Assembly: GCF_012290005.1 (NCBI RefSeq)
Contig: NZ_JAAXMS010000005.1
Coordinates: 620,001-684,000, forward strand
Reading direction: 5' to 3'
DNA: 64,000 nt
DNA from: Crateriforma spongiae
GTDB lineage: Bacteria > Planctomycetota > Planctomycetia > Pirellulales > Pirellulaceae
Positions 53,336 through 64,000 of the stretch are shown here, in pieces. A program made the position numbers and the translations under genes. Numbering within the stretch: the first letter of the stretch is position 1; each line of letters opens with the position of its first letter. The notes under the pieces were generated by a model that saw only the letters and a program-made list of their open reading frames with translations, was not told the DNA's origin and did no database searches.

Positions 53336-54337
53336 CTAGAGCGTGAAAAGCCGCTTGTGAAACACCCGCGTGGGGCGCCAATGATCGCTGCGCCGCTGTG
53401 CAATCGCGCAAACATCGCCTGAGGGATCGATCGCTGCCGCATCGCGAACCTCTTTGTCGCCCGCCGCGGTCGTCCGAGTTCGCGAAACATGAAGTGACAG
53501 ACCATTGGTGATTCGCCAGGTCTGTTCGTCATCCAGGTGCAGCGTTGTCAGATGGGCCAAACCTTCGTTGGCAGGCCGAAGCAGTGACATGCACCGGCCC
53601 TCACGAATCTGTTGGACGGACATCGCGTCGGTCAATTCAAACTGACCCACACGAGTCCGCACCAAATGGTGCATCACTGATTCGGTTCCGCACCGCCGTG
53701 CCAGGTCCATGCCCAACGTCCGAATGTAAGTGCCGCTGCCACAGCAAATGTCCAGCCAAATGTTGGGGTATTCGTATCGCTGGATGGTCAATTCGTGAAT
53801 GTCGACGGCGCGGGCGGGCATCGGCACTTCGACGCCTTTGCGAGCCATCTTGTAGGCACGGCGTCCGTTGATTTTGATCGCCGAATGGCTGGGCGGAACT
53901 TGCCGGATGCGGCCGGTCAATTGGCGGGCAGCGGATTGAAGCTCGTCCAGCGTCGGGATAGGAGCGTCGTCGATGGTCTGGACTGGTTGTTCCAGATCGC
54001 CCGATTCGCTCCGCTGACCCAAGACGAAGCGGGCTTGATACTGTTTGGACGCCAGTTGCAAATAACTGGTCAGCTTCGCCGCCGGGCCGACGCCCATGAC
54101 CAGCACCCCTTCGGCCAACGGATCGAGCGTTCCGGCGTGTCCGACCTTGGGAGGTTTCCGGCGGGGCGTCGGGGCGTCAGACTGTTCGGGCGAACCGTCC
54201 GTGTCGGAAACGACAACGGCCAAACGTTCGCGATACGATTTGCGTATTGCTCCCGTTCCCAGGTTGACCAAGTCACGCGAGGTCATTCCCGGGGGTTTGT
54301 GGCAGTTCAGGAAACCGAAGAACTTCATCGCTTCCAT
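53336..54337 (-). CDS. truB: tRNA pseudouridine(55) synthase
   Basis: A 333-residue TruB. It opens with MKFFGFLNCHKPPGMTSRD, and the catalytic aspartate lies in KVGHAGTLDPLAEGVLVMG. Further family segments are YQARFVLGQRSESGDLE, YKMARKGVEVPMPARAVDIH and CGSGTYIRTLGMDLAR. An insertion of about 20 residues (VVVSDTDGSPEQSDAPTP) precedes the catalytic loop. It makes pseudouridine at tRNA position 55. The ATG at 54337 is 5 bp from the start codon of the divergent NUDIX gene; a second ATG at 54328 is possible. Upstream genes ftsK and truB run the same way but are probably separate units. Confidence 0.95.
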   Translation of the reverse strand: MEAMKFFGFLNCHKPPGMTSRDLVNLGTGAIRKSYRERLAVVVSDTDGSPEQSDAPTPRRKPPKVGHAGTLDPLAEGVLVMGVGPAAKLTSYLQLASKQYQARFVLGQRSESGDLEQPVQTIDDAPIPTLDELQSAARQLTGRIRQVPPSHSAIKINGRRAYKMARKGVEVPMPARAVDIHELTIQRYEYPNIWLDICCGSGTYIRTLGMDLARRCGTESVMHHLVRTRVGQFELTDAMSVQQIREGRCMSLLRPANEGLAHLTTLHLDDEQTWRITNGLSLHVSRTRTTAAGDKEVRDAAAIDPSGDVCAIAQRRSDHWRPTRVFHKRLFTL

Positions 54338-54342
54338 AATCG

Positions 54343-54873
54343 ATGCAAAAAAAATCCGACGAAAAGCAATTGTTGGCGGGAAACCGTTTTGATGTCCATG
54401 CGATGGAGCTTGTCGGCAGCGACGGCAAGACCTACATCCGCGAAGTCGTCCGGCACCCCGGTGCGGTCCTGCTGTTGCCGATTCTGGACAACGGCGACGT
54501 GGTCATGATTGAAAACTATCGACCGACGATCGACCAGACGTTGTTGGAATTGCCTGCCGGCACACGTGAACCGGGGGAGCCGCCGGAAATCACCGCCGAG
54601 CGTGAATTGGTGGAAGAAACCGGATACGCCGCGGGCAAACTTCAGCACTTGCACACGTACTTTTCCGCACCCGGGATTTGCGACGAACAGATGTTCTTGT
54701 TCTTGGCGACCGATCTGACCGCGGGCGACGCACAGCGTGAAGCCGTCGAACAAATCGAGAACCGGATCGTGCCGATCGACCAAGCGATGCAGATGATCCG
54801 CGACGGAAAAATCCTGGACGCCAAGACCATCGTCGGCCTCAGCCTGTACCAAATGATGTCTCCCACCACCTAA
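54343..54873 (+). CDS. NUDIX hydrolase, ADP-ribose pyrophosphatase-like
   Basis: A 176-residue NUDIX enzyme. The start at 54343 is preferred to 54403 because the N-terminal strand (LLAGNRFDVHAMELVG) belongs to the fold. NUDIX box: GEPPEITAERELVEETGYAAG, with the typical E-x7-REUxEE pattern split over PPEITAERELVEETG. ENYRPTIDQTLLELPAGTRE resembles the ADP-ribose/sugar-nucleotide pyrophosphatase subgroup. The start codon is only 5 bp from that of truB on the other strand, so the promoters must overlap the neighbouring coding sequence. Confidence 0.9.
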   Translation: MQKKSDEKQLLAGNRFDVHAMELVGSDGKTYIREVVRHPGAVLLLPILDNGDVVMIENYRPTIDQTLLELPAGTREPGEPPEITAERELVEETGYAAGKLQHLHTYFSAPGICDEQMFLFLATDLTAGDAQREAVEQIENRIVPIDQAMQMIRDGKILDAKTIVGLSLYQMMSPTT

Positions 54874-55418
54874 AAGGGGACGGGGTTCTTTTTCGGAGTT
54901 CGGCCAGTCCTTTGCGACGGCAAAGAACCATTGCACTGGTCCACGGCCGCGCGCTGAAAGCTAAAAACGCTAAACAATGCACCGGAGATGACTTTCGTTT
55001 CGACGGTGCCATCAAAGCTTGCCACCTTCGACATAATCAAGGCGGCATAGACCAGTAGGTCGCGCCGTGCGTGACGGAATCTATATTGCCTATCGCGATC
55101 AGGTTGTCCTTGCTACTCGGAGCATGCCCAACAGGACTAGGTTCGTGCCATCGGACCCTGTCCCTGTTGGTCTTTGCCGGCGACCGGATTGGATCATGCG
55201 ACCTTCCTTCAATTGGCCGTACGGAAGCTAGCAGCCCACGGCCGTCGGTTTCAAGCAATCGATTTGGTCCGTCTTGTCCACCGCAGTCCTGGTGTGGCGG
55301 AGGTCCTCTATGGGGATGCTGGAGGTTTTCGTCGCAGCGTCATCTCGGTCGACCGGTGCTGGTTGGACTAAATTATGAGTCGACCTTCCGTCCTTCATCT
55401 CTGGGCCTTGCCACGATC
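54874..55418. other. Non-coding stretch with REP-like motif
   Basis: A 545-bp gap between the NUDIX and sigma-factor genes. At 54870-54895 is a CTAAAAGGGGACGGGG sequence, a variant of the motif near 63899. The frame leading into the sigma factor is open from 55071 but its sequence does not look like protein. No terminator was clear. The right part presumably holds the sigma-factor promoter. Confidence 0.5.
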
Positions 55419-56282
55419 ATGTCCGCCAACACGTCGCCAAAGTTTGCTACGACACGATGGTCGATGGTTGTGGCCGCATCGCGAAACGTTTCTCAGCGAT
55501 CTCGCCGCGACGCCGGTGACGTGCCGTCGAGTTCCATTAGGTCGGCCGGCGACAAGCCTGTTTCGGAAGACCAGTCCTTCGGCCGATCCGCGTATGACGT
55601 CCAGTGTCCAACCGACGAAGCGAACGCAGCCCTGGAATCATTGTGCGAAACGTATTGGCCGCCCCTGTATGCCTTTGCGATTCGCCGCGGCTACAGCGTC
55701 GCGGATGCGCAAGACCTGACACAGGACTTCTTTGCACATCTAATGCAGAGCGATTTTCTGACCAAGGCCGATGCCGATCGCGGTCGATTCCGCACGTTCC
55801 TGTTGACGGTGTTCGAACGATTCGCTGCGTCGCAATGGCGCAAAGCGTCCGCTCAAAAACGCGGCGGCGATCACGCGACGTTGCAGTTGGATTTCGGAGC
55901 GGCCGACGAAGGGGCGCGTTTAGCCGGCGAGCCTACCGCGAAGGGCATGTCCCCCGACCGGTTCTTCCAACAGCAATGGGCACTGACGTTGTTGTCGAAA
56001 GTGATCGATCAGTTGCGTCAGGAATATTCTCATCGGAAATCTCTCGAATTGTTCGAGGCCCTGGAGTCGCAGTGGAATCCGGGCGCGGCGCCTGGCGAAT
56101 CGTACGAGATCGTGGCCCAGCGTCTTGGCATGACCAGCGGGGCTGTCAAAGTGGCCGCTCATCGTATAAGGGCCCGGTATCGCACAGTCTTGCGAGAACT
56201 GGTCGCCGAAACCGTTGCCGACGAAGCCGAAGTGGAAGACGAAATCCGCGATCTGATGAATTCTTTTTCCGATTCGGTGTAA
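55419..56282 (+). CDS. ECF-type RNA polymerase sigma factor
   Basis: A 287-residue planctomycete-type ECF sigma factor. The start at 55419 (MSANTSPKFATTRWSMVVAA) is chosen because the ATTRWSMV opening is typical of this group; the frame extends upstream without protein character. Sigma region 2 (ESLCETYWPPLYAFAIRRGY, AQDLTQDFFAHLM) and region 4 (ESYEIVAQRLGMTSGAVKVA, HRIRARYRTVLREL) are clear. The linker is longer than in standard ECF factors. It lies 47 bp before a serine/threonine kinase gene; in planctomycetes such pairs suggest that kinase signalling replaces an anti-sigma factor. Confidence 0.92.
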   Translation: MSANTSPKFATTRWSMVVAASRNVSQRSRRDAGDVPSSSIRSAGDKPVSEDQSFGRSAYDVQCPTDEANAALESLCETYWPPLYAFAIRRGYSVADAQDLTQDFFAHLMQSDFLTKADADRGRFRTFLLTVFERFAASQWRKASAQKRGGDHATLQLDFGAADEGARLAGEPTAKGMSPDRFFQQQWALTLLSKVIDQLRQEYSHRKSLELFEALESQWNPGAAPGESYEIVAQRLGMTSGAVKVAAHRIRARYRTVLRELVAETVADEAEVEDEIRDLMNSFSDSV

Positions 56283-56328
56283 CCCTTGCTGCGGAAACTG
56301 CGAACCGATGGGCAAGGAGAACCCGAAT

Positions 56329-57966
56329 ATGACAACTGAAGAAATCCGTTGCCCGTCGTGTGGTAAATCACTGCCCGCTTCCTCGCCGCTGGGTCAGCAG
56401 TGCCCGAGCTGCATGTTGGCGGCCGGGCTTGGTGGCCAAACGCAATCCTTTGGCAACGACGACGCTTTCTCGAATTCCATCGCCGAGACTTCCGCCAGCG
56501 GCACCTGGACACCGCAATCGGCAGAATCCATCGATCAGCTGTTTGACGCGGTTGATGTGGTGGAGCTGATCGGTCACGGCGGCATGGGAGCGGTGTACCG
56601 GGCACGCCAGTCGATGCTGGGACGCGACGTCGCGCTGAAAGTGCTATCACCGGCACTCAGTGGCGACGCTCGTTTCGCCGACCGGTTCATGCGTGAAGCT
56701 CGCGCGCTGGCCCAGCTTTCGCACCCGGGCATCGTCACCGTGTATGACTTCGGCCGACGCGGTGACGTGCTGTATCTAATCATGGAATTCGTCGACGGTG
56801 TGAACCTTCGCGAAGCCATGCGTGCCGAAGCGATGTCGCCCGATGCGGCGATCGAAGTCGTGCTTCAGATCAGCGCTGCCCTGCAGTACGCTCATGCCGC
56901 TGGCGTCGTGCACCGCGACATCAAACCTGAAAACATCCTGCTTGAACGTAGCGGTCGAGTGCGGTTGGTCGATTTCGGATTGGCTAAGCTGACTTCGCAA
57001 GGCGAACGAGACGCAACATTGACCGGGACGAACCAAGTCATCGGTACGATGCACTACATGGCGCCAGAGCAATGGGAACGACCCGGCGAGGTCGATCACC
57101 GCGCGGACATCTATTCCCTAGGCGTCGTGTTCTACGAATTGCTGACCGGGCAGCTGCCGTTGGGACGATTCAAGTTGCCGTCTGAATCGGGTTTGAACGC
57201 AATCGGGTTGGACGACGTCGTTTTGAAAACGCTCGAACGCGCGCCGCAGGATCGCTACCAAAGCGTCGGCGAAATGAGCGAAGATGTCAGCCGTATGTCC
57301 GAATCCTCGTCGACGGGCAACGAACGGGCGTCTGGCATTATCCCACCGCCAAGTCCGCCGGATGCGTCTTCGTCCGATGTGTTGCATGGAACTGCACCGG
57401 AGGGGTTGTCTAACTTTCATCGTGGGCGTTTGCTGACGGGCGTTGTATTGGTTTGTATTGGCATGGGGTTGCTGTTGCACGGGCTGATCAATGGATTCGT
57501 TACAATGTGGATCGGGCCGGGAATTGCGATCAACGGCTTTGTGTTCATGGGAATCGCGTTCGCCGGGGCGGACGAGGACGTGAGCGACCAGGACGTGAGC
57601 TTCGTTCGGTCCCCAAATGTGGGCCTGTTGGTGTTCGGTACGTCTATGTTGTGGGGCGGCGCGATCATTTGTCCGGGCGGTTTCGACAGTCCGTTCGGAT
57701 GGACCGGCATGGGGCTAATGATCGGCGGCGCGTATGTCATGGGCACAGCGTGGGAACAGCCCAAAAACACGATTCTGCGTCCTTGGAATCGGCCCAAACC
57801 GGCGCCGTTATTCTTGTCGTTGGGCATGGTCCTGATCGGGGCGATTGTGCTGATCGGAGGAATCATGTCCGGACGCCACGAACTCATTTGGTCCGGGTTA
57901 GGGCTGACGATTGGCGGCGGTGCCATTTCGATCGCTGCGTGGACCGACAAGGTCAAAAAACCGTGA
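56329..57966 (+). CDS. Zinc-ribbon serine/threonine kinase with membrane C-terminus
   Basis: A 545-residue Hanks-type kinase. The ATG at 56329 follows AAGGAG with a 9-nt spacer; the in-frame ATG at 56308 has no such site. It begins with a zinc-ribbon-like CPSCGKSLPASSPLGQQCPS (two CxxC pairs). The kinase domain follows: GHGGMGAVYRARQ, DVALKVLS, HRDIKPENILLE, DFGLAKL and APEQW. After a proline/serine linker come about six membrane spans arranged as a repeat-like block (GIGMGLLLHGLINGFVTMWI to GAIVLIGGIMSG). Its membrane location and the adjacent ECF sigma factor suggest it senses an envelope or environmental signal. Confidence 0.92.
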   Translation: MTTEEIRCPSCGKSLPASSPLGQQCPSCMLAAGLGGQTQSFGNDDAFSNSIAETSASGTWTPQSAESIDQLFDAVDVVELIGHGGMGAVYRARQSMLGRDVALKVLSPALSGDARFADRFMREARALAQLSHPGIVTVYDFGRRGDVLYLIMEFVDGVNLREAMRAEAMSPDAAIEVVLQISAALQYAHAAGVVHRDIKPENILLERSGRVRLVDFGLAKLTSQGERDATLTGTNQVIGTMHYMAPEQWERPGEVDHRADIYSLGVVFYELLTGQLPLGRFKLPSESGLNAIGLDDVVLKTLERAPQDRYQSVGEMSEDVSRMSESSSTGNERASGIIPPPSPPDASSSDVLHGTAPEGLSNFHRGRLLTGVVLVCIGMGLLLHGLINGFVTMWIGPGIAINGFVFMGIAFAGADEDVSDQDVSFVRSPNVGLLVFGTSMLWGGAIICPGGFDSPFGWTGMGLMIGGAYVMGTAWEQPKNTILRPWNRPKPAPLFLSLGMVLIGAIVLIGGIMSGRHELIWSGLGLTIGGGAISIAAWTDKVKKP

Positions 57967-58930
57967 TGTCGCCAATCTCTTGGAGGACGTCGTGACGAAC
58001 GAGAGGGCCGACCAAGATTTACCGGTCCGTTCCCGGGCACTTCCGTAGCCTTGGGTCGCATGGTGTGCCACCGCGGCGGCCGTTCTCGCATCGAGCGAAA
58101 CAAAAGGGGCAGGCGTCCTTAATGAGTGCTCCTGCCGCGAAACCAATGAAGGCAGGCGACGCTGATAAGTGTTCTCGCTGATGCGTTCGAGAAAAAGGAA
58201 GCTTGATAAGGTTGCTGCGAAGCGGCATTGTTAGTGGACTGCCAGGATGCCCGCTTCACTCTCGGGAAGACACCAGCCACACGTCACGTGGAGATTTTTG
58301 TGGCCAGACCAAACGCGGCAGAGTTTCGGCGGGGCCGCCGGGGTTTGTGGTTCGGCAGTTGTGGGTGGAGCTTCTTCACTTCGCTCCGCTCCGCGATCCG
58401 CCCTGCATTGGGATTTGGCATTGCGAGCAATATCGGTGGTGCTTCGTCCGGTAGCTGGATGCGACAGCATGCAGGCTCCGCCCTCTCCCGTTGGTCCCGC
58501 ACATCAGGTCCTGTCTCCACCAGCACGATCGTCAATCATTGAGCAATCGACTTTGGTGTCTTCCATGTCCATTACGTCCTTCCGGACGTGCCAACCGCAG
58601 GCGTTACCGAAACAAAGACGCCTGACCCCTTTGTCTTATCCAGATGACCGTGCGATGCATCGTCGAACCACTCGTAGCGGATCGCATCAGTCGCCCAGGG
58701 CGATTTCGGAGATTCTGATGCCTTTTGGCGATTTTTCTGGCGGGTAGCGAGCCGAAATCGTGCTCTTCCCAAGTAGAGCCAACTTCAAACGGCTTCATCG
58801 CTACATGAACTGTTTTGCCGAATGCGTGGACTGATGTCGAGACTCGCATGCCCGGGCAAACCCGGGGTGGTTGGTCAAATCGTCGTTGGCAATCCCGTAT
58901 CGGACGCACACAAACGAAAGAGGAAGTAGA
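57967..58930. other. Non-coding stretch with repeat copies
   Basis: A 964-bp region with only short, unconvincing frames. It holds a degenerate REP-like motif at 58101-58120 (CAAAAGGGGCAGGCGTCCTT) and the minus-orientation copy of a 56-bp repeat at 58582-58637. The right end carries the AGAGGAAG ribosome binding site of the next gene. This marks the left side of an accessory block. Confidence 0.6.
58582..58637 (-). repeat. 56-bp dispersed repeat, copy A
   Basis: An exact reverse complement of 63837-63892, 56 of 56 bases. In plus orientation it starts CCGGACGTGCCAACCGCAGG. It includes the core GACAAAGGGGTCAGGCGT that is also seen at 62684. See copy B. Confidence 0.95.
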
Positions 58931-59638
58931 ATGTTGAACGGAAGCAGCTTGGATCTGGATGAATCCAAGCTCTTAAGGATCGCTGAAGTCTTCTCGCATT
59001 GTCTCCACGACGACGCGGACCGGTGGCAGTACTCACTTCCGATGAATCAGTTGCATGAGCAGGGCTTTTCATCTGACCAGTTGAGCAAACTAGTTTCTTC
59101 AAACTGGATCGAACACGCGTTGGAGATCGTATCTGACAACGCTTCGCAGCGACGTTTTTCCTTCGATGGTTCGATGTCGTTCTCCGAGTCAAGTTGCTTC
59201 GCTTTGAGCGTCGAGGGTCGACGGATACTCAGCGGGCTCGTTACGCTCACTGGCGAGATCGCAAGGCCTGGTTCTTCAATGCACCCGTTTGCAAAGCCAG
59301 TCTGGGACGATGAGGGAAATCGCTTGACTTTCGCGGGCGTCCTGGTGAAACGTTACAGGCAACCAGCCGAAACGCAAAAGTGTGTGCTGCGTGCTTTTCA
59401 ATCGCAACAATGGTCGAAGCAAATTGAGAATCCACTGCCCGACGAAGGATTTGTCGATCGCGTCGACCAACTCTATGAAACCGTTCGGTCGTTGAATCGT
59501 TGTCGCATCGTCAAGCTTATTCGATTCGAGACGATCGAGAGTCCTCACTTCATCGGATGGATCCTCGAACCTCAAGAACAGCCAAACAAGGTACAAAACG
59601 AAAAGCCGAAGAAGCACCCGGAAAGCACCCCGAGGTGA
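58931..59638 (+). CDS. Hypothetical protein
   Basis: A 235-residue soluble protein with no signal peptide or membrane span. The ATG at 58931 follows AGAGGAAG with a 5-nt spacer, so the start is well supported. No family is recognised. It has an N-terminal helical stretch (SKLLRIAEVFSHCLHDDADR) and a C-terminal Lys/Glu/Gln-rich tail. It lies at the head of a four-gene plus-strand cluster inside the 56-bp repeat pair. Function unknown. Confidence 0.7.
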   Translation: MLNGSSLDLDESKLLRIAEVFSHCLHDDADRWQYSLPMNQLHEQGFSSDQLSKLVSSNWIEHALEIVSDNASQRRFSFDGSMSFSESSCFALSVEGRRILSGLVTLTGEIARPGSSMHPFAKPVWDDEGNRLTFAGVLVKRYRQPAETQKCVLRAFQSQQWSKQIENPLPDEGFVDRVDQLYETVRSLNRCRIVKLIRFETIESPHFIGWILEPQEQPNKVQNEKPKKHPESTPR

Positions 59639-59699
59639 TTCGGCAGGTGTGTGCATAATTCTGGACGTTCCAAGCCAGTTCCGAGGGAAGGAAGTTACC

Positions 59700-60773
59700 G
59701 TGCAAACAAAAAACACCGCAGCAACCGATGCAAAGCTGTCAATCCTCGTAGCCATTATTGTGCTCGCTGCAACACCCCTAAAAGCTCAGGCTCAGGAAGA
59801 CGCTCCCAGCGCGACTCGACGCCCCACCGCCCTGAACGCCACTCAGGTCCACCAAGTTGACTCGCAGGCCCGTTTTCACCAAATCGACTTAGGCAAACTT
59901 GATCCTGCGGAGCCAGTTTCCCTCGGCATCACGCTTTCGAACACGGAAACGATCGCTCGTCCGTTGAAAGAAGTGTTGGTTTCGTGCGGATGTGTTGCGG
60001 TCACGAAGGATGCGTTGTCGCTAGATCCCGGAAACACGCGTCTTGAGTTTAAGGTCACGCCATCAACGAAAGCTGGGACTCACCGCGAGAGCATTCAGTT
60101 CGTCTACCGTGACACCGACGAAACTTCGAGCGAGGAAACGACCGTCCTGCTTACCTACCTATCCAAGCCACGCGTCGTTGTCGAGTTTGAGCGAGATGCA
60201 TGGGAAGTCGATGCGACCGACAGGGGAACTTTGACCAGGGTGATCGTGCTGCGTAGCGATGTACGTGACGACTTGTCGTCCATCGTGGCGGCGACCTCAC
60301 GAACGGATATCGCCCTAACTGTAAAGGATGTCAGACGCGAAGGTGAATCCTTTGTTCGAGAAGTGGTTGTTACGCTGACGAGTGGTGGCAAACGCTCAAT
60401 ACAATTACCCCGACATTTCTCGATCCATTTAAAGGACAAGCAACGTGATAAAGCCATAGCGAGCGTTCCGATGGTCGCCGTTGCAGCTGTTGAGGTTGAT
60501 ATCACGGCAATAAGGCAAGGAGGTGTCCTTAAAATCTATAGTCGCTTTTCGAAACCTCAGTCTGCCGCCCCGAAAACAGAGATCGATTTCGTTGACAGGT
60601 CGGCAGGGCGGAAAAAGGCGATAAAGGCAGTGCGGCTGAACTCCCGTTTGTATCGTTCCGAGCTTCCGGGTGGTTTGAACGACGCTTTGGCCAACGCCCT
60701 GTTCCGGGTCTCGACGGGAGCAAACAGAGAATCCACATATGAGTTTCCTCTCGCGCGGTATGCCGAGGATTGA
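59700..60773 (+). CDS. Secreted DUF1573-like protein
   Basis: A 357-residue exported protein. The start is GTG at 59700, preceded by GGAAGGAAG. It has a signal peptide (AKLSILVAIIVLAATPLKAQ). The mature protein resembles DUF1573, an immunoglobulin-like beta fold: FHQIDLGKLDPAEPVSLGIT and then the conserved VSCGCVAVTKDALSLDPGN. A less conserved second half is also beta-rich. DUF1573 proteins in planctomycetes are often secreted and of unknown role. The next gene begins about 40 bp downstream. Confidence 0.75.
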   Translation: MQTKNTAATDAKLSILVAIIVLAATPLKAQAQEDAPSATRRPTALNATQVHQVDSQARFHQIDLGKLDPAEPVSLGITLSNTETIARPLKEVLVSCGCVAVTKDALSLDPGNTRLEFKVTPSTKAGTHRESIQFVYRDTDETSSEETTVLLTYLSKPRVVVEFERDAWEVDATDRGTLTRVIVLRSDVRDDLSSIVAATSRTDIALTVKDVRREGESFVREVVVTLTSGGKRSIQLPRHFSIHLKDKQRDKAIASVPMVAVAAVEVDITAIRQGGVLKIYSRFSKPQSAAPKTEIDFVDRSAGRKKAIKAVRLNSRLYRSELPGGLNDALANALFRVSTGANRESTYEFPLARYAED

Positions 60774-60811
60774 TTCTTGTCCCTCGCACGTAAGTGCCCA
60801 AGCTCTAATTA

Positions 60812-61921
60812 ATGCACGTTCGTCCTCTCACTCAAGCAATCCTGGCAATGAACCTAAAAAAGCAAATGCCCTCCTGCCGAGAAACACCAAGTAAAGTTGT
60901 GAAAACAAGCGTTGCACGAAGGTGGTGCCGTTTCTTTTGGCGAGCTTCTTCGGTTGCCGTGGCTTTGTCGATGCTGACTACCTCGGGAACCGTTGTGGCT
61001 CAAGATCGGCCGATCAAAGTTTCGGCAAACCGGGACTTCGAAAACATTCTGTTTCATGCGATGGAGCAGCGGGGGAAGTTGATCTCCGTGAGCTTCAAGT
61101 ACCAAATGAACTACACAGAGGCTGGCGAAGACTCGATCACTTGGCGACAAACAGGCGAATTAAGTGTTGACGAAAGGACAGACGCTTTCGCACACCTGTT
61201 TCAACGAATTGAAAAACCAAGCCCGGTGGAAGCGAAAGCACTGAGGGGAAACAAAGAAACGGCATCGGAGGGATCGCGTCGCTGGCAGCCCGGCGGTGTT
61301 GTGAAAACCGACCAGGGCCTCTGGATTTGCAGCCCTGAGATGCCGCGTGTTCGTCTCGTTCGAAATGGGGAACCCAGCGGCTTTTCATACTCGGTACCAT
61401 TCGCCGTTCGCGGCTTGGGGTTTTCGTTCTATGGGAACTTCCTGCGAAAAGATGACCTGGATCTCGCCATCCTGCCGTACCTGACTTATCCGTCCATTAA
61501 AACGCTTTCATCAGAAGCGGGGATCGATGTGTTGAAGAAGACCAAACTGAACGGGGGAGTTGATTCCCTGAAAAACAATGCGGTCGAGTTTTTCAATGCA
61601 GGAGGATACGTGCTGGCAATCGATACGAATCGAGACTACTGGCCGATCGCCGGGCTCTACGAGCGAACGCGTTATGTGAAAAAGAAAGACGGAAGTTTCC
61701 GAGAAAATGGGACGCAGGTGGTTACTAAATACGAATGTGACCTAGAGCTATTCAATGGCCGATGGGTGCCCAAAGATTTTCGTTATTCAGGAACGTCTGG
61801 ATCGCACGTCGTTTCCTTGCAGTGGTCCCAGTGCAACCCTGCCGAGCCTTTCGAACCATTCAATCATCTTACCCTGGCCAATCACGTTGCCGACGTAATG
61901 GGCCGTATCAATTCGAAGTAG
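60812..61921 (+). CDS. Hypothetical exported protein
   Basis: A 369-residue protein (357 if started at the second ATG, 60848; no ribosome binding site decides). A basic N-terminus and one hydrophobic segment (SSVAVALSMLTTSGTVVAQ) suggest export. The rest is soluble with an aromatic-rich middle (RGLGFSFYGNFLRKDDLD, LAILPYLTYPSIKTL). No family is recognised. It follows the DUF1573 gene by 38 bp and precedes the Cys-rich gene by 36 bp, so the three may be one unit. Confidence 0.65.
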   Translation: MHVRPLTQAILAMNLKKQMPSCRETPSKVVKTSVARRWCRFFWRASSVAVALSMLTTSGTVVAQDRPIKVSANRDFENILFHAMEQRGKLISVSFKYQMNYTEAGEDSITWRQTGELSVDERTDAFAHLFQRIEKPSPVEAKALRGNKETASEGSRRWQPGGVVKTDQGLWICSPEMPRVRLVRNGEPSGFSYSVPFAVRGLGFSFYGNFLRKDDLDLAILPYLTYPSIKTLSSEAGIDVLKKTKLNGGVDSLKNNAVEFFNAGGYVLAIDTNRDYWPIAGLYERTRYVKKKDGSFRENGTQVVTKYECDLELFNGRWVPKDFRYSGTSGSHVVSLQWSQCNPAEPFEPFNHLTLANHVADVMGRINSK

Positions 61922-61957
61922 CTGTTTTTTGTTCCTCTACTGAAGGAAAGATTTGTT

Positions 61958-62491
61958 ATGTTGAAGTTGAATTTGAAGATGCTATGCTGCGTGTGGGCGG
62001 CTGCCTGCGGTCCTTGGGCCATTGGGCAAAACTGCTTTATCGATGCCGGTGCGACGTGCGAGGATCAGATCGGACTTGAATTTCTGTTCGCGTGCAATGC
62101 GACGCCTTGTTTGTATGAACATGTGATGGAGGGCGCGAACAGGAAGGTTCAGAACGGATTTTATGTTTTGAACTATGATTGCCCTGGGGATCATATTGAG
62201 GGTGTCGTCCAAGACGACGAAACCTACGACTGCATGGTTGATAACGATGACGGAACATATAACGGCATTGCGCCCGTTGAGACGGTGCAGTGTGTCAAGT
62301 TTCGTGTTTGCAAAGCGGGTTGCGAGGAAACCAACCAGACAGACCCAAATAACCCCATGATTCGCCTTGCTTACTGTCAGTCGTCGACGGTCCCCACCTT
62401 CTCGCATCCTGACGGGGAATTCGAGTCGACACCGTGCTTTGGTGAGTGTCAGCAAGGTGGTGATGATGACGTCGGGGACGATTACCAATGA
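61958..62491 (+). CDS. Small cysteine-rich secreted protein
   Basis: A 177-residue protein with a short signal peptide (MLKLNLKMLCCVWAAACG, cleaved near IGQ). AAGGAAA lies 10 nt before the ATG at 61958. The mature part has about twelve cysteines (CFIDAGATC, CNATPCLY, CMVDNDDG, CVKFRVCKAGCEETN, CFGEC) and an acidic C-terminus. It looks like a disulfide-stabilised extracellular protein. No homologue was recognised. Last gene of the cluster. Confidence 0.7.
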   Translation: MLKLNLKMLCCVWAAACGPWAIGQNCFIDAGATCEDQIGLEFLFACNATPCLYEHVMEGANRKVQNGFYVLNYDCPGDHIEGVVQDDETYDCMVDNDDGTYNGIAPVETVQCVKFRVCKAGCEETNQTDPNNPMIRLAYCQSSTVPTFSHPDGEFESTPCFGECQQGGDDDVGDDYQ

Positions 62492-62896
62492 TCCGTCATA
62501 CCATGGCAACGCCATTTTTGTCGATTTTGGGTTGTCACATTGGGCGAACTTCGTAGCGATGCCCACGCGCCCACCTCGTGACCACTCTCTGCGTGGTCAC
62601 GCAGTGTTCGACGCTCCGCGTCATCTCCCAGGATCGTGCCGCGGGAGCGGCGGGGATTGCGAACACGACAAAGGGGTCAACACGACAAAGGGGTCAGGCG
62701 TGAATGCCGCGTCGTTAAAGGGCATTGCACGACAGGTAGTTAATTTTGGGTTTCGCTAGCACGACCGGTAGTGCTAGCGAACGTGATCTGCATTTACTGT
62801 GCCGAGGGATTCGCTGCCAGCGGCACAAAACACGACGGAGCCTTGTTGTAATGTGATGAACGTCTAAACCCATCACACAAAACAAAAGGCCCCGCC
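62492..62896. other. Repeat-bearing gap before IS4 element
   Basis: A 405-bp region without a gene. It contains GACAAAGGGGTCAA at 62667, GACAAAGGGGTCAGGCGTGA from 62684, and a perfect 11-bp hairpin at 62752-62781. The right part is the leader of the IS4 transposase and may include the IS end. Confidence 0.6.
62752..62781. repeat. Perfect 11-bp inverted repeat hairpin
   Basis: The arms TTCGCTAGCAC and GTGCTAGCGAA are separated by an 8-base loop (gaccggta). It lies 115 bp before the IS4 transposase. No T-run follows, so it is unlikely to be a simple terminator; it could be a repeat or an IS-end structure. Confidence 0.8.
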
Positions 62897-64000
62897 GTGT
62901 CACACAAGGCTATCAGTTCATTGTCCCGTTTGGCAAGCAAGTTGGAGTCTGATCCCGAGCAGTCTCTCGTCTTTGAACGGTTCCTGCCTGCGGTCGAAGT
63001 GCGTGAAGTGTGCGCGGAATTCGGGCACTGTTTTCGCGATCGGATTTACACACCCGTCATCACGTTGTGGATGTTTCTCGGGCAGACGCTTTCACCGGAC
63101 CATTCTTGTCGTGACGCGGTCCATCGGCTGAACGCTTGGCGGGTCAGTCGTCGAAAGGAAAGGGCGGTTACCAACACCACAGCATACTGTCAAGCAAGAC
63201 AGCGATTACCAGAGGATGTTGTCCAAGAACTTGCCAAACGAAGCGGCCAAAGGTGTCAGCAACACGCGGCCGGTCGATGGCGGTGGAAGGGGCACGACGT
63301 TAAGGTTGCCGACGGCTTTACGTTGACGATGCCCGATACGCTGGAGAACCAAAAAGAGTACCCTCAGCAACGGAGCCAGAAGAAGGGATGCGGCTTCCCT
63401 GTCATGCGTTGCGTGATGCTGTTCTGCCTTTCCACTGGAGCTGCGTTGGACATTGCAATGGGGCCGTACCGGGGGAAACAATCCGGTGAGAACAGTCTGT
63501 TTCAGGCAATCAATAAGCTGCTTTTTCCGGGAGATATCCTGTTGGCTGATCGCTATTACGCGACTTTTGAAAACATCTACCAGGCGATCAAGGGTGGCTA
63601 CGACGTCGTGATGCGATCTCACCACAATCGGCAGATCGACTTTCGTCGCGGCTTCAAACAAGGCAGCTACGATCAAATTGTTGCCTATCAAAAACCTGCT
63701 CGCCGTCCGGTCTGGATGTCAAAGCAAGAATACCGCGAGTGCGACCCATTCATTCTGGTTCGGCACGTGAGTTACGAAGTAAAACGCAAAGGTTTCCAAG
63801 TTCGTCGAATCGTCTTGGCAACAACGATGCTTCGACAAGACAAAGGGGTCAGGCGTCTTTGTTTCGGTAACGCCTGCGGTTGGCACGTCCGGGGAAAGCT
63901 AAAGGGGACGGGGGTGAATGGCACGAACTTAGGACCTAAGCTGCCGTGGCGTAACGGTTTCGGTTCGGATCACGGGGGTTTTTGCATGAGCTTGTATTGT
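62897..64000 (+). pseudogene. IS4-family transposase interrupted by REP-like insertion
   Basis: From the GTG at 62897 (VSHKAISSLSRLASKLESDP) the plus strand is open to the window edge. It reads as an IS4-type DDE transposase to about 63836: FLGQTLSPDHSCRDAVHRLN, the first aspartate in VKVADGFTLTMPDT and the second in DILLADRYYATFENIY, with the strand VRRIVLATTMLRQ. At 63837 the sequence changes to the 56-bp repeat and then to a GGGGACGGGGG motif. The C-terminal YREK/E catalytic segment is therefore absent and the gene must be inactive even though the frame stays open. The stop codon lies beyond the window. Confidence 0.85.
63837..63892 (+). repeat. 56-bp dispersed repeat, copy B, inside IS4 transposase
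   Basis: It starts AAGACAAAGGGGTCAGGCGT and is the exact reverse complement of 58582-58637. It falls directly after the transposase residues ATTMLRQ, where homology stops, so it appears to be an insertion. A second REP-like motif (CTAAAGGGGACGGGGG) begins at 63899, a few bases downstream. Confidence 0.95.

Follow-up and report, generated by a model that had tools for sequence, protein, structure and literature searches.

Putative terminal-inverted-repeat ends, flank-copying tip arrays and a tip-bounded gene block in Crateriforma spongiae

The passages of Di Nocera et al. (2013, PMC3733652) that treat TIRtrons/TIRYTs, in which a Y1 gene is accompanied by terminal inverted repeats (TIRs), give GGGGWSAS as the consensus and name R. 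baltica, while the sections of PMC6006769 on such enzymes place 20 of 26 TIRYTs in TnpA-Y1 subclass 2.1 and state that TnpA-REP can cleave and rejoin repetitive extragenic palindromes (REPs). REPs are also described as landing sites: the part of PMC1525189 (Tobes and Pareja, 2006) devoted to them lists nine of nine copies of ISRm22, an insertion sequence (IS) of the IS4 family, and two of nine copies of a P. putida group II intron within REPs. Here we analysed a 64,000-nucleotide (nt) stretch of the planctomycete Crateriforma spongiae (contig NZ_JAAXMS010000005.1, positions 620,001 to 684,000; hereafter the window), in which two inverted 56-nt arms enclose a block of four genes. We consider it probable that the arms are ends of a non-autonomous element, that the short tips within them are TIRs of the Y1/HUH transposase family (TIRYT or REP-associated tyrosine transposase, RAYT), and that the block, itself bounded by tips, moved to its place between them. 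Comparisons were made between the C. spongiae genome (G000, 6.87 Mb) and that of a sister species (G011), the sole same-genus genome for comparison. All window features lie on the plus strand, except the right arm.

The left arm (58582–58637) is the exact reverse complement of the right arm (63837–63892, minus strand) over 56 nt, and over 59 nt with one mismatch (98%), at precisely the coordinates reported in an earlier note on this DNA. Since no other exact inverted match in the window exceeds 22 nt, the pair is not due to chance. The genome-wide count that the same note had proposed places the 56-mer at exactly two positions, up to three mismatches being allowed, and the tip at its core proved far commoner. 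Between the arms lie four open reading frames (ORFs) and, as had been described, most of an IS4-family transposase, whose match to NF033592 (157.6 bits) covers profile positions 1–271 of 332.

A search with the left arm and its surroundings (741 nt) retrieved a relative of ~440 bp at C4:615256-615690 (76%), followed directly by a partial second copy, and further pieces at C6:560683-561045. Alignment of five copies from the two genomes delimits a non-autonomous element of ~490 bp (58143–58632), present in several copies, with the right end AAAGACGCCTGACCCCTTT; for the left end, the C4 copy gives AAAGGGGTCAGGCGTCTTTG and the window copy a degenerate sequence. From the bounds of this alignment, the element's right end makes up the left arm, together with a tip shared with the block, and the right arm is a solo fragment, 56 nt long, of that end. 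Beyond the junction, on the side of the block, lie 17 of the 56 nt (58621–58637), whose match reflects the common tip motif. A degenerate extra tip copy, with two mismatches to ACAAAGGGGTCAGGCGTC, is present at 58100–58117. The element is a candidate miniature inverted-repeat transposable element (MITE) that shares the tip only, in variant form, with the Y1 element described below. Visual inspection of C4:615206-615690 and of that Y1 element revealed no target-site duplication. To our knowledge, Y1 elements are not expected to produce target-site duplications. Folded as a single strand over its length, the element was unremarkable (z −1.29, with 8 of 100 shuffles equally good), and such a structure was discarded. 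We note that at C6:561020-561210 (L057) roughly ten tandem copies of the 18-nt unit TGACCCCTTTGTCTTGTC, some with one substitution, stand beside an element end.

Both arms carry the tip AAAGGGGTCAGGCGTC. Its core 18-mer is found at 17 places in the genome within two mismatches, against one for the reversed control, and the exact 12-mer AAAGGGGTCAGG occurs 28 times in C. spongiae and 28 times in the sister species (reversed control, one in each). The tip AAAGGGGTCAGGCGTCTTT forms a short imperfect hairpin, and the form GAAATCAAAGGGGTCAGGCCTCTTTGATTTC a hairpin of 13 bp (z −5.9). An Rfam scan of three stretches (L058, comprising the window from 54000 plus 9.9 kb, together with L162 and L177) returned a group II intron in L162 as its sole match at gathering score, and a structured RNA was set aside on this basis. 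In C. spongiae the tips are restricted to contigs C4, C5, C6, C11 and C19, and all 28 exact tips of the sister species fall within 1.58 Mb (C1:2321536-3897304) of a 7.18-Mb contig, a region that is possibly a variable part of the chromosome.

A closely related form of the tip, AAAGGGGTCAGGCCTC, flanks a Y1/HUH transposase gene of RAYT type in C. spongiae. A search for Y1-type transposases, also proposed in the earlier note, yielded seven Y1_Tnp profile matches in this genome, one of which, at C6:201025, is the gene with the related tip and is flanked by inverted AAAAGGGGTCAGGCCTCTTT. The encoded protein contains HYH and YVERN motifs and matches the NCBIfam model for REP-associated tyrosine transposases with an E value of 2e-13; comparison with solved structures gave two chance-level matches only (E 0.1 and 0.2). 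The tip at this gene is of the GGCCTC form, which differs from the GGCGTC form of the window. A second Y1 match, at C5:19370, is flanked by inverted AAAGGGGACGGGGGTCTTTT. In the sister species, the full Y1 element is preceded by a second copy of its initial 300 bp (C1:2322767-2323088, L286).

The association extends to relatives of the Y1 gene, for which 59 loci were collected, 58 from planctomycetes and one from Acidobacteria. Twenty-two were excluded because the gene was incomplete or too little flanking sequence was present, including the R. baltica relative (L222), which shows no tip. Among the 37 usable loci, 30 have a tip within 300 nt upstream and 21 have tips on both sides in inverted orientation, compared with 1 and 0 of 37 for control stretches taken further out. 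The usual tip forms are GGCCTC, GGACTC or GGTCTC, and two loci (L201 and L203) have the GGCGTC form of the window upstream. At the level of sequence, tip homology ties the arms, as TIR-type ends, to the Y1 transposase family. The earlier proposal of REP-type mobile repeats therefore holds in substance, a related tip flanking the Y1 gene in C. spongiae and its relatives in other planctomycetes, while the name suits less well: the TIR of a TIRYT is a better fit than a GTAG-type REP.

The orthologous site in the sister species (C1:3794946-3807262, minus strand) matches window positions 54000–54885 at 97% and the window from 63833 onward at 97.8% over the first 2 kb and 95% over 10 kb. Its interior consists of the right half of the element twice in tandem (matching window 58379–58637 at 93%) and other DNA, and it is without the block, the IS4 piece and the pair of sigma-factor and kinase genes found in the window. 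Homology of the right flanks begins 9 nt outside the tip of the right arm (63842–63853), and the arm itself is identical at 56 of 56 positions, from which the right arm is most simply read as predating the split of the two species. Recent copying of the arms, as the earlier note had it, becomes needless, and a recent duplication within C. spongiae was likewise discarded, the right arm being identical in the sister species. The same note raised inversion of the block, and the perfect 56-nt inverted arms are what a switch of the four genes would use. Such a switch is nevertheless highly improbable: a single orientation is seen in one assembly, the orthologous site has no block and carries its element pieces in unchanged orientation, and the right arms of both species share the 9 nt that lie outside, which supports the orientation as assembled. 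An invertible segment was rejected on these grounds, all of them drawn from assembled sequence.

The block extends from tip to tip over 58621–62700. Genes 1 (58871–59638), 3 (60812–61921) and 4 (61958–62491, cysteine-rich) are ORFs with no Pfam or NCBIfam match, the Pfam search giving none at E 0.1, and gene 2 (59649–60773) encodes an Ig domain of HYDIN/CFA65 type above the Pfam cut-off. DUF1573, named in the earlier note, falls just below threshold in gene 2 (24.2 bits against a cut-off of 26.1). Searched at the DNA level, 148 family genomes contained the block in C. spongiae and the sister species, with a third genome giving a 32-bp match only. The copy in the sister species lies at another locus (C1:3559447-3563526) and is 99.19% identical over 4080 bp, compared with 89–98% for the flanks that were compared. 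In both genomes the block opens on the left with the tip CCTGACCCCTTTGTCTTATCC and closes on the right with the tandem tip ACACGACAAAGGGGTCAACACGACAAAGGGGTCAGG, which in the window comprises two copies with the 7-nt flank ACACGAC copied between them (62663–62698). Outside these tips, neither side has the same neighbours in the two genomes, the counterparts of the flanks in the sister species being found in C. spongiae on contigs C19/C16 (89–92%) and C11 (94%). The block is single-copy in C. spongiae, in the window, and in the sister species 256 bp from the end of the block are additionally repeated, this repeat likewise closing at a tip. Because the block recurs nearly unchanged at another locus with its tip edges shared and its neighbours differing, we take it to be a separately mobile unit that moved, or was transferred, as a tip-ended segment. 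Carriage on a plasmid was rejected: the two short matches obtained (61 and 64 bp) both fall in the part of the query before the left arm.

The tandem tip at the right edge of the block belongs to a wider class of arrays. Twenty of 149 family genomes contain the pattern AAAGGGGTCAN{4,20}AAAGGGGTCA (reversed control, 0). Of 75 arrays found, 74 distinct ones were kept, 14 upstream bases being required and duplicates by outer sequence being removed; the comparison of flank with spacer was applicable to 66, the remaining eight having a spacer of less than 7 nt. The outer flank equals the spacer over 7 nt in 51 of these 66 arrays and over at least six of seven nt in 58, whereas perfect matches between different loci amount to 0.9% (10.5% within one genome), and the summed agreement was reached in 0 of 2000 permutations. 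The copied local flank is mostly 7–10 nt long. Similar arrays adjoin Y1 genes too (for example L194, L195, L197, L200 and L216), and the second tip family, present in the window at 54873–54885 and 63901–63914, provides one tandem case. The sequences show that tips have repeatedly been duplicated together with local flank, and the block is tip-ended at two loci in two species.

Arrays of this kind could arise by replication slippage at a hairpin without any enzyme, as hairpins can stall polymerases and the array units are short and derived from the flank. We regard this origin as possible, with the odds against it, on account of three properties of the arrays. The unit length is 17–20 nt in 69 of 90 cases despite a copied flank that varies by locus; the TIR is complete at the innermost copy in 55 of 74 arrays compared with 4 of 74 at the outermost, by a motif list compiled post hoc after the arrays had been inspected; and no base markedly predominates just ahead of the copied flank (24 G, 23 A, 17 C and 10 T among 74), and hence there is no clear microhomology. 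The pattern suggests, and falls short of proving, that cuts would fall outside the hairpin, at a set distance from it.

Tips also coincide with breaks in synteny. The flanks of the 28 tips of each species were compared against selected stretches of the other genome only, and the stretches of the sister species were chosen for holding tips or matches, such that the numbers of introns or ISs seen in tips do not represent rates for the whole genome. Homology ends within 30 nt of a tip on one side at, for example, C4:61846, C4:613534, C5:678621, C5:682687, C5:683842, C11:946 and C19:4761; other tips are conserved on both sides, such as C4:164008, C4:688787 and C6:527515, and some have no match on either side. 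Several tips contain insertions. At C5:712564/713043, C. spongiae has a tip, an IS4 piece and a tip where the sister species has a single tip; this piece (C5:712564-713054, L059) is a second partial copy of the IS4 element of the window, ~450 bp long and 96% identical from about 62682. Another IS4-family element, IS-b, is present in two copies within tips with the 9-bp duplication GGTCAGGCG, in one further copy with unmatched sides, and as single ends at other tips. A group II intron lies in three copies at AAAGGGG(T/G)CAGG^CGT, one scanned copy of which matches Rfam RF02005, and the right tip of the Y1 element in the sister species contains an IS4-like element. In another genome, an IS-b-like end is located at position 6308 of L118 (G055:C1:4336000-4346000) in a second-family tip, within a two-copy tip array.

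These insertions are an argument for regarding the tips as passive targets, where IS and intron insertion, followed by recombination between ISs or at microhomology, would account for all shuffling and block movement without Y1. The 9-bp duplications of IS-b in tips, the three introns and the IS4-like element in the tip of the Y1 element all agree with this, the IS-b copy with unmatched sides is what IS–IS recombination would leave, and the left junction of the block in the sister species contains such a group II intron. The left junction in C. spongiae, however, has neither IS nor intron, the tips are the only edges common to both locations of the block while the adjacent ISs differ, and the arrays of tip plus flank are left unexplained. 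Purely passive tips therefore seem to us rather unlikely.

We instead favour a role for a Y1 enzyme, which would act on single-stranded tips and cut in the loop or 7–10 nt outside the hairpin. Rejoining of the cut ends could then produce solo ends, arrays and hybrid junctions, and the block, bounded by two tips, would have moved as a unit to a position with an old element end on one side and an old solo end on the other. The present inverted pair would result from the block having lodged there, with no switching role. Several observations weigh against this proposal. Folding of the window tip is moderate only (z −3.25, opposite strand −2.48), and shuffled sequences fold as well as the two tips of the Y1 gene itself (z −0.95 and 0.20). 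The protein encoded at C6:201025 scores 50 bits, below the NCBIfam cut-off of 80, and the search of C. spongiae revealed no Y1 gene that carries exactly the GGCGTC tip. The other five of the seven Y1 matches have no exact tip of either kind within ~1.5 kb, two of them having a one-mismatch tip nearby, and a nearby tip is missing from 7 of the 37 usable relatives. In addition, some tip junctions are accounted for by IS or intron insertion alone.

A stronger version, in which the Y1/HUH enzyme cuts the loop (after GGGGTCA) and 7–10 nt outside regardless of sequence and joins the ends freely, appears unlikely to us. If true, it would describe a tip-addressed cassette system instead of a classical transposon, in which tip and flank are copied in tandem, hybrid tips form, and blocks between outward-facing tips are moved across loci and species.

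The remaining features of the window surround these structures. Synteny of the left flank with the sister species stops at 54885, the end of a second-family tip AAAGGGGACGGGG (54873–54885). Sigma-factor and serine/threonine kinase genes (55071–57966) adjoin this tip, and their absence from the orthologous site suggests that the pair may be another mobile module. The IS4-family piece (62699–63832), recognized by its transposase and second partial copy, is without its right end, and its junction lies 9 nt outside the tip of the right arm. On the other side, the right arm is bounded at 63893–63914 by 8 nt past the end of the arm homology followed by the second-family tip AAAGGGGACGGGGG (63901–63914). 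The IS4 leader contains a strong hairpin (62828–62902) with a sub-threshold match to an animal microRNA family (31.5 of 64 bits), surely by chance.

The manner in which RAYT and TIRYT enzymes spread short repeats is unsettled. The arrays resemble natural, locus-specific records of joining events in which the copied flank marks the site of the break, and gene-sized moves can be delimited by such repeats, as the tip-bounded block suggests. A literature search with the tip sequence returned no title on bacterial repeats. Compared with GTAG-type REPs and their RAYTs (REPtrons), the tips share the short hairpin-like form and the tie to a Y1 tyrosine transposase, and the pertinent passages on GTAG-type REPs describe REP clusters reiterated with flanking DNA segments. 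By contrast, the tips described here are without the GTAG foot and number only 28 exact copies per genome; reading the sequence beside both tips directly confirmed that the foot is absent, and a GTAG-type REP was rejected. As in the portion of PMC1525189 concerned with REPs as IS targets, IS4-family elements and a group II intron insert into the repeats, the target here being a TIRYT-type tip in planctomycetes. The closest likeness is to TIRtrons/TIRYTs, as characterized in the published passages: a Y1 gene with inverted TIRs is present at C6:201025, the window holding ends only; the consensus GGGGWSAS is matched by GGGGTCAG in both arms; and TIR copies are dispersed singly, in pairs or in groups. 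Thus, to the extent that these sources cover TIRtrons/TIRYTs, TnpA-REP cleavage and the insertion of ISs and introns into REPs, the element is of a kind already known. The interesting parts are the arrays with 7–10 nt of copied flank and the tip-ended block of 4 kb, which are not among the features that the same passages describe for TIRtrons.

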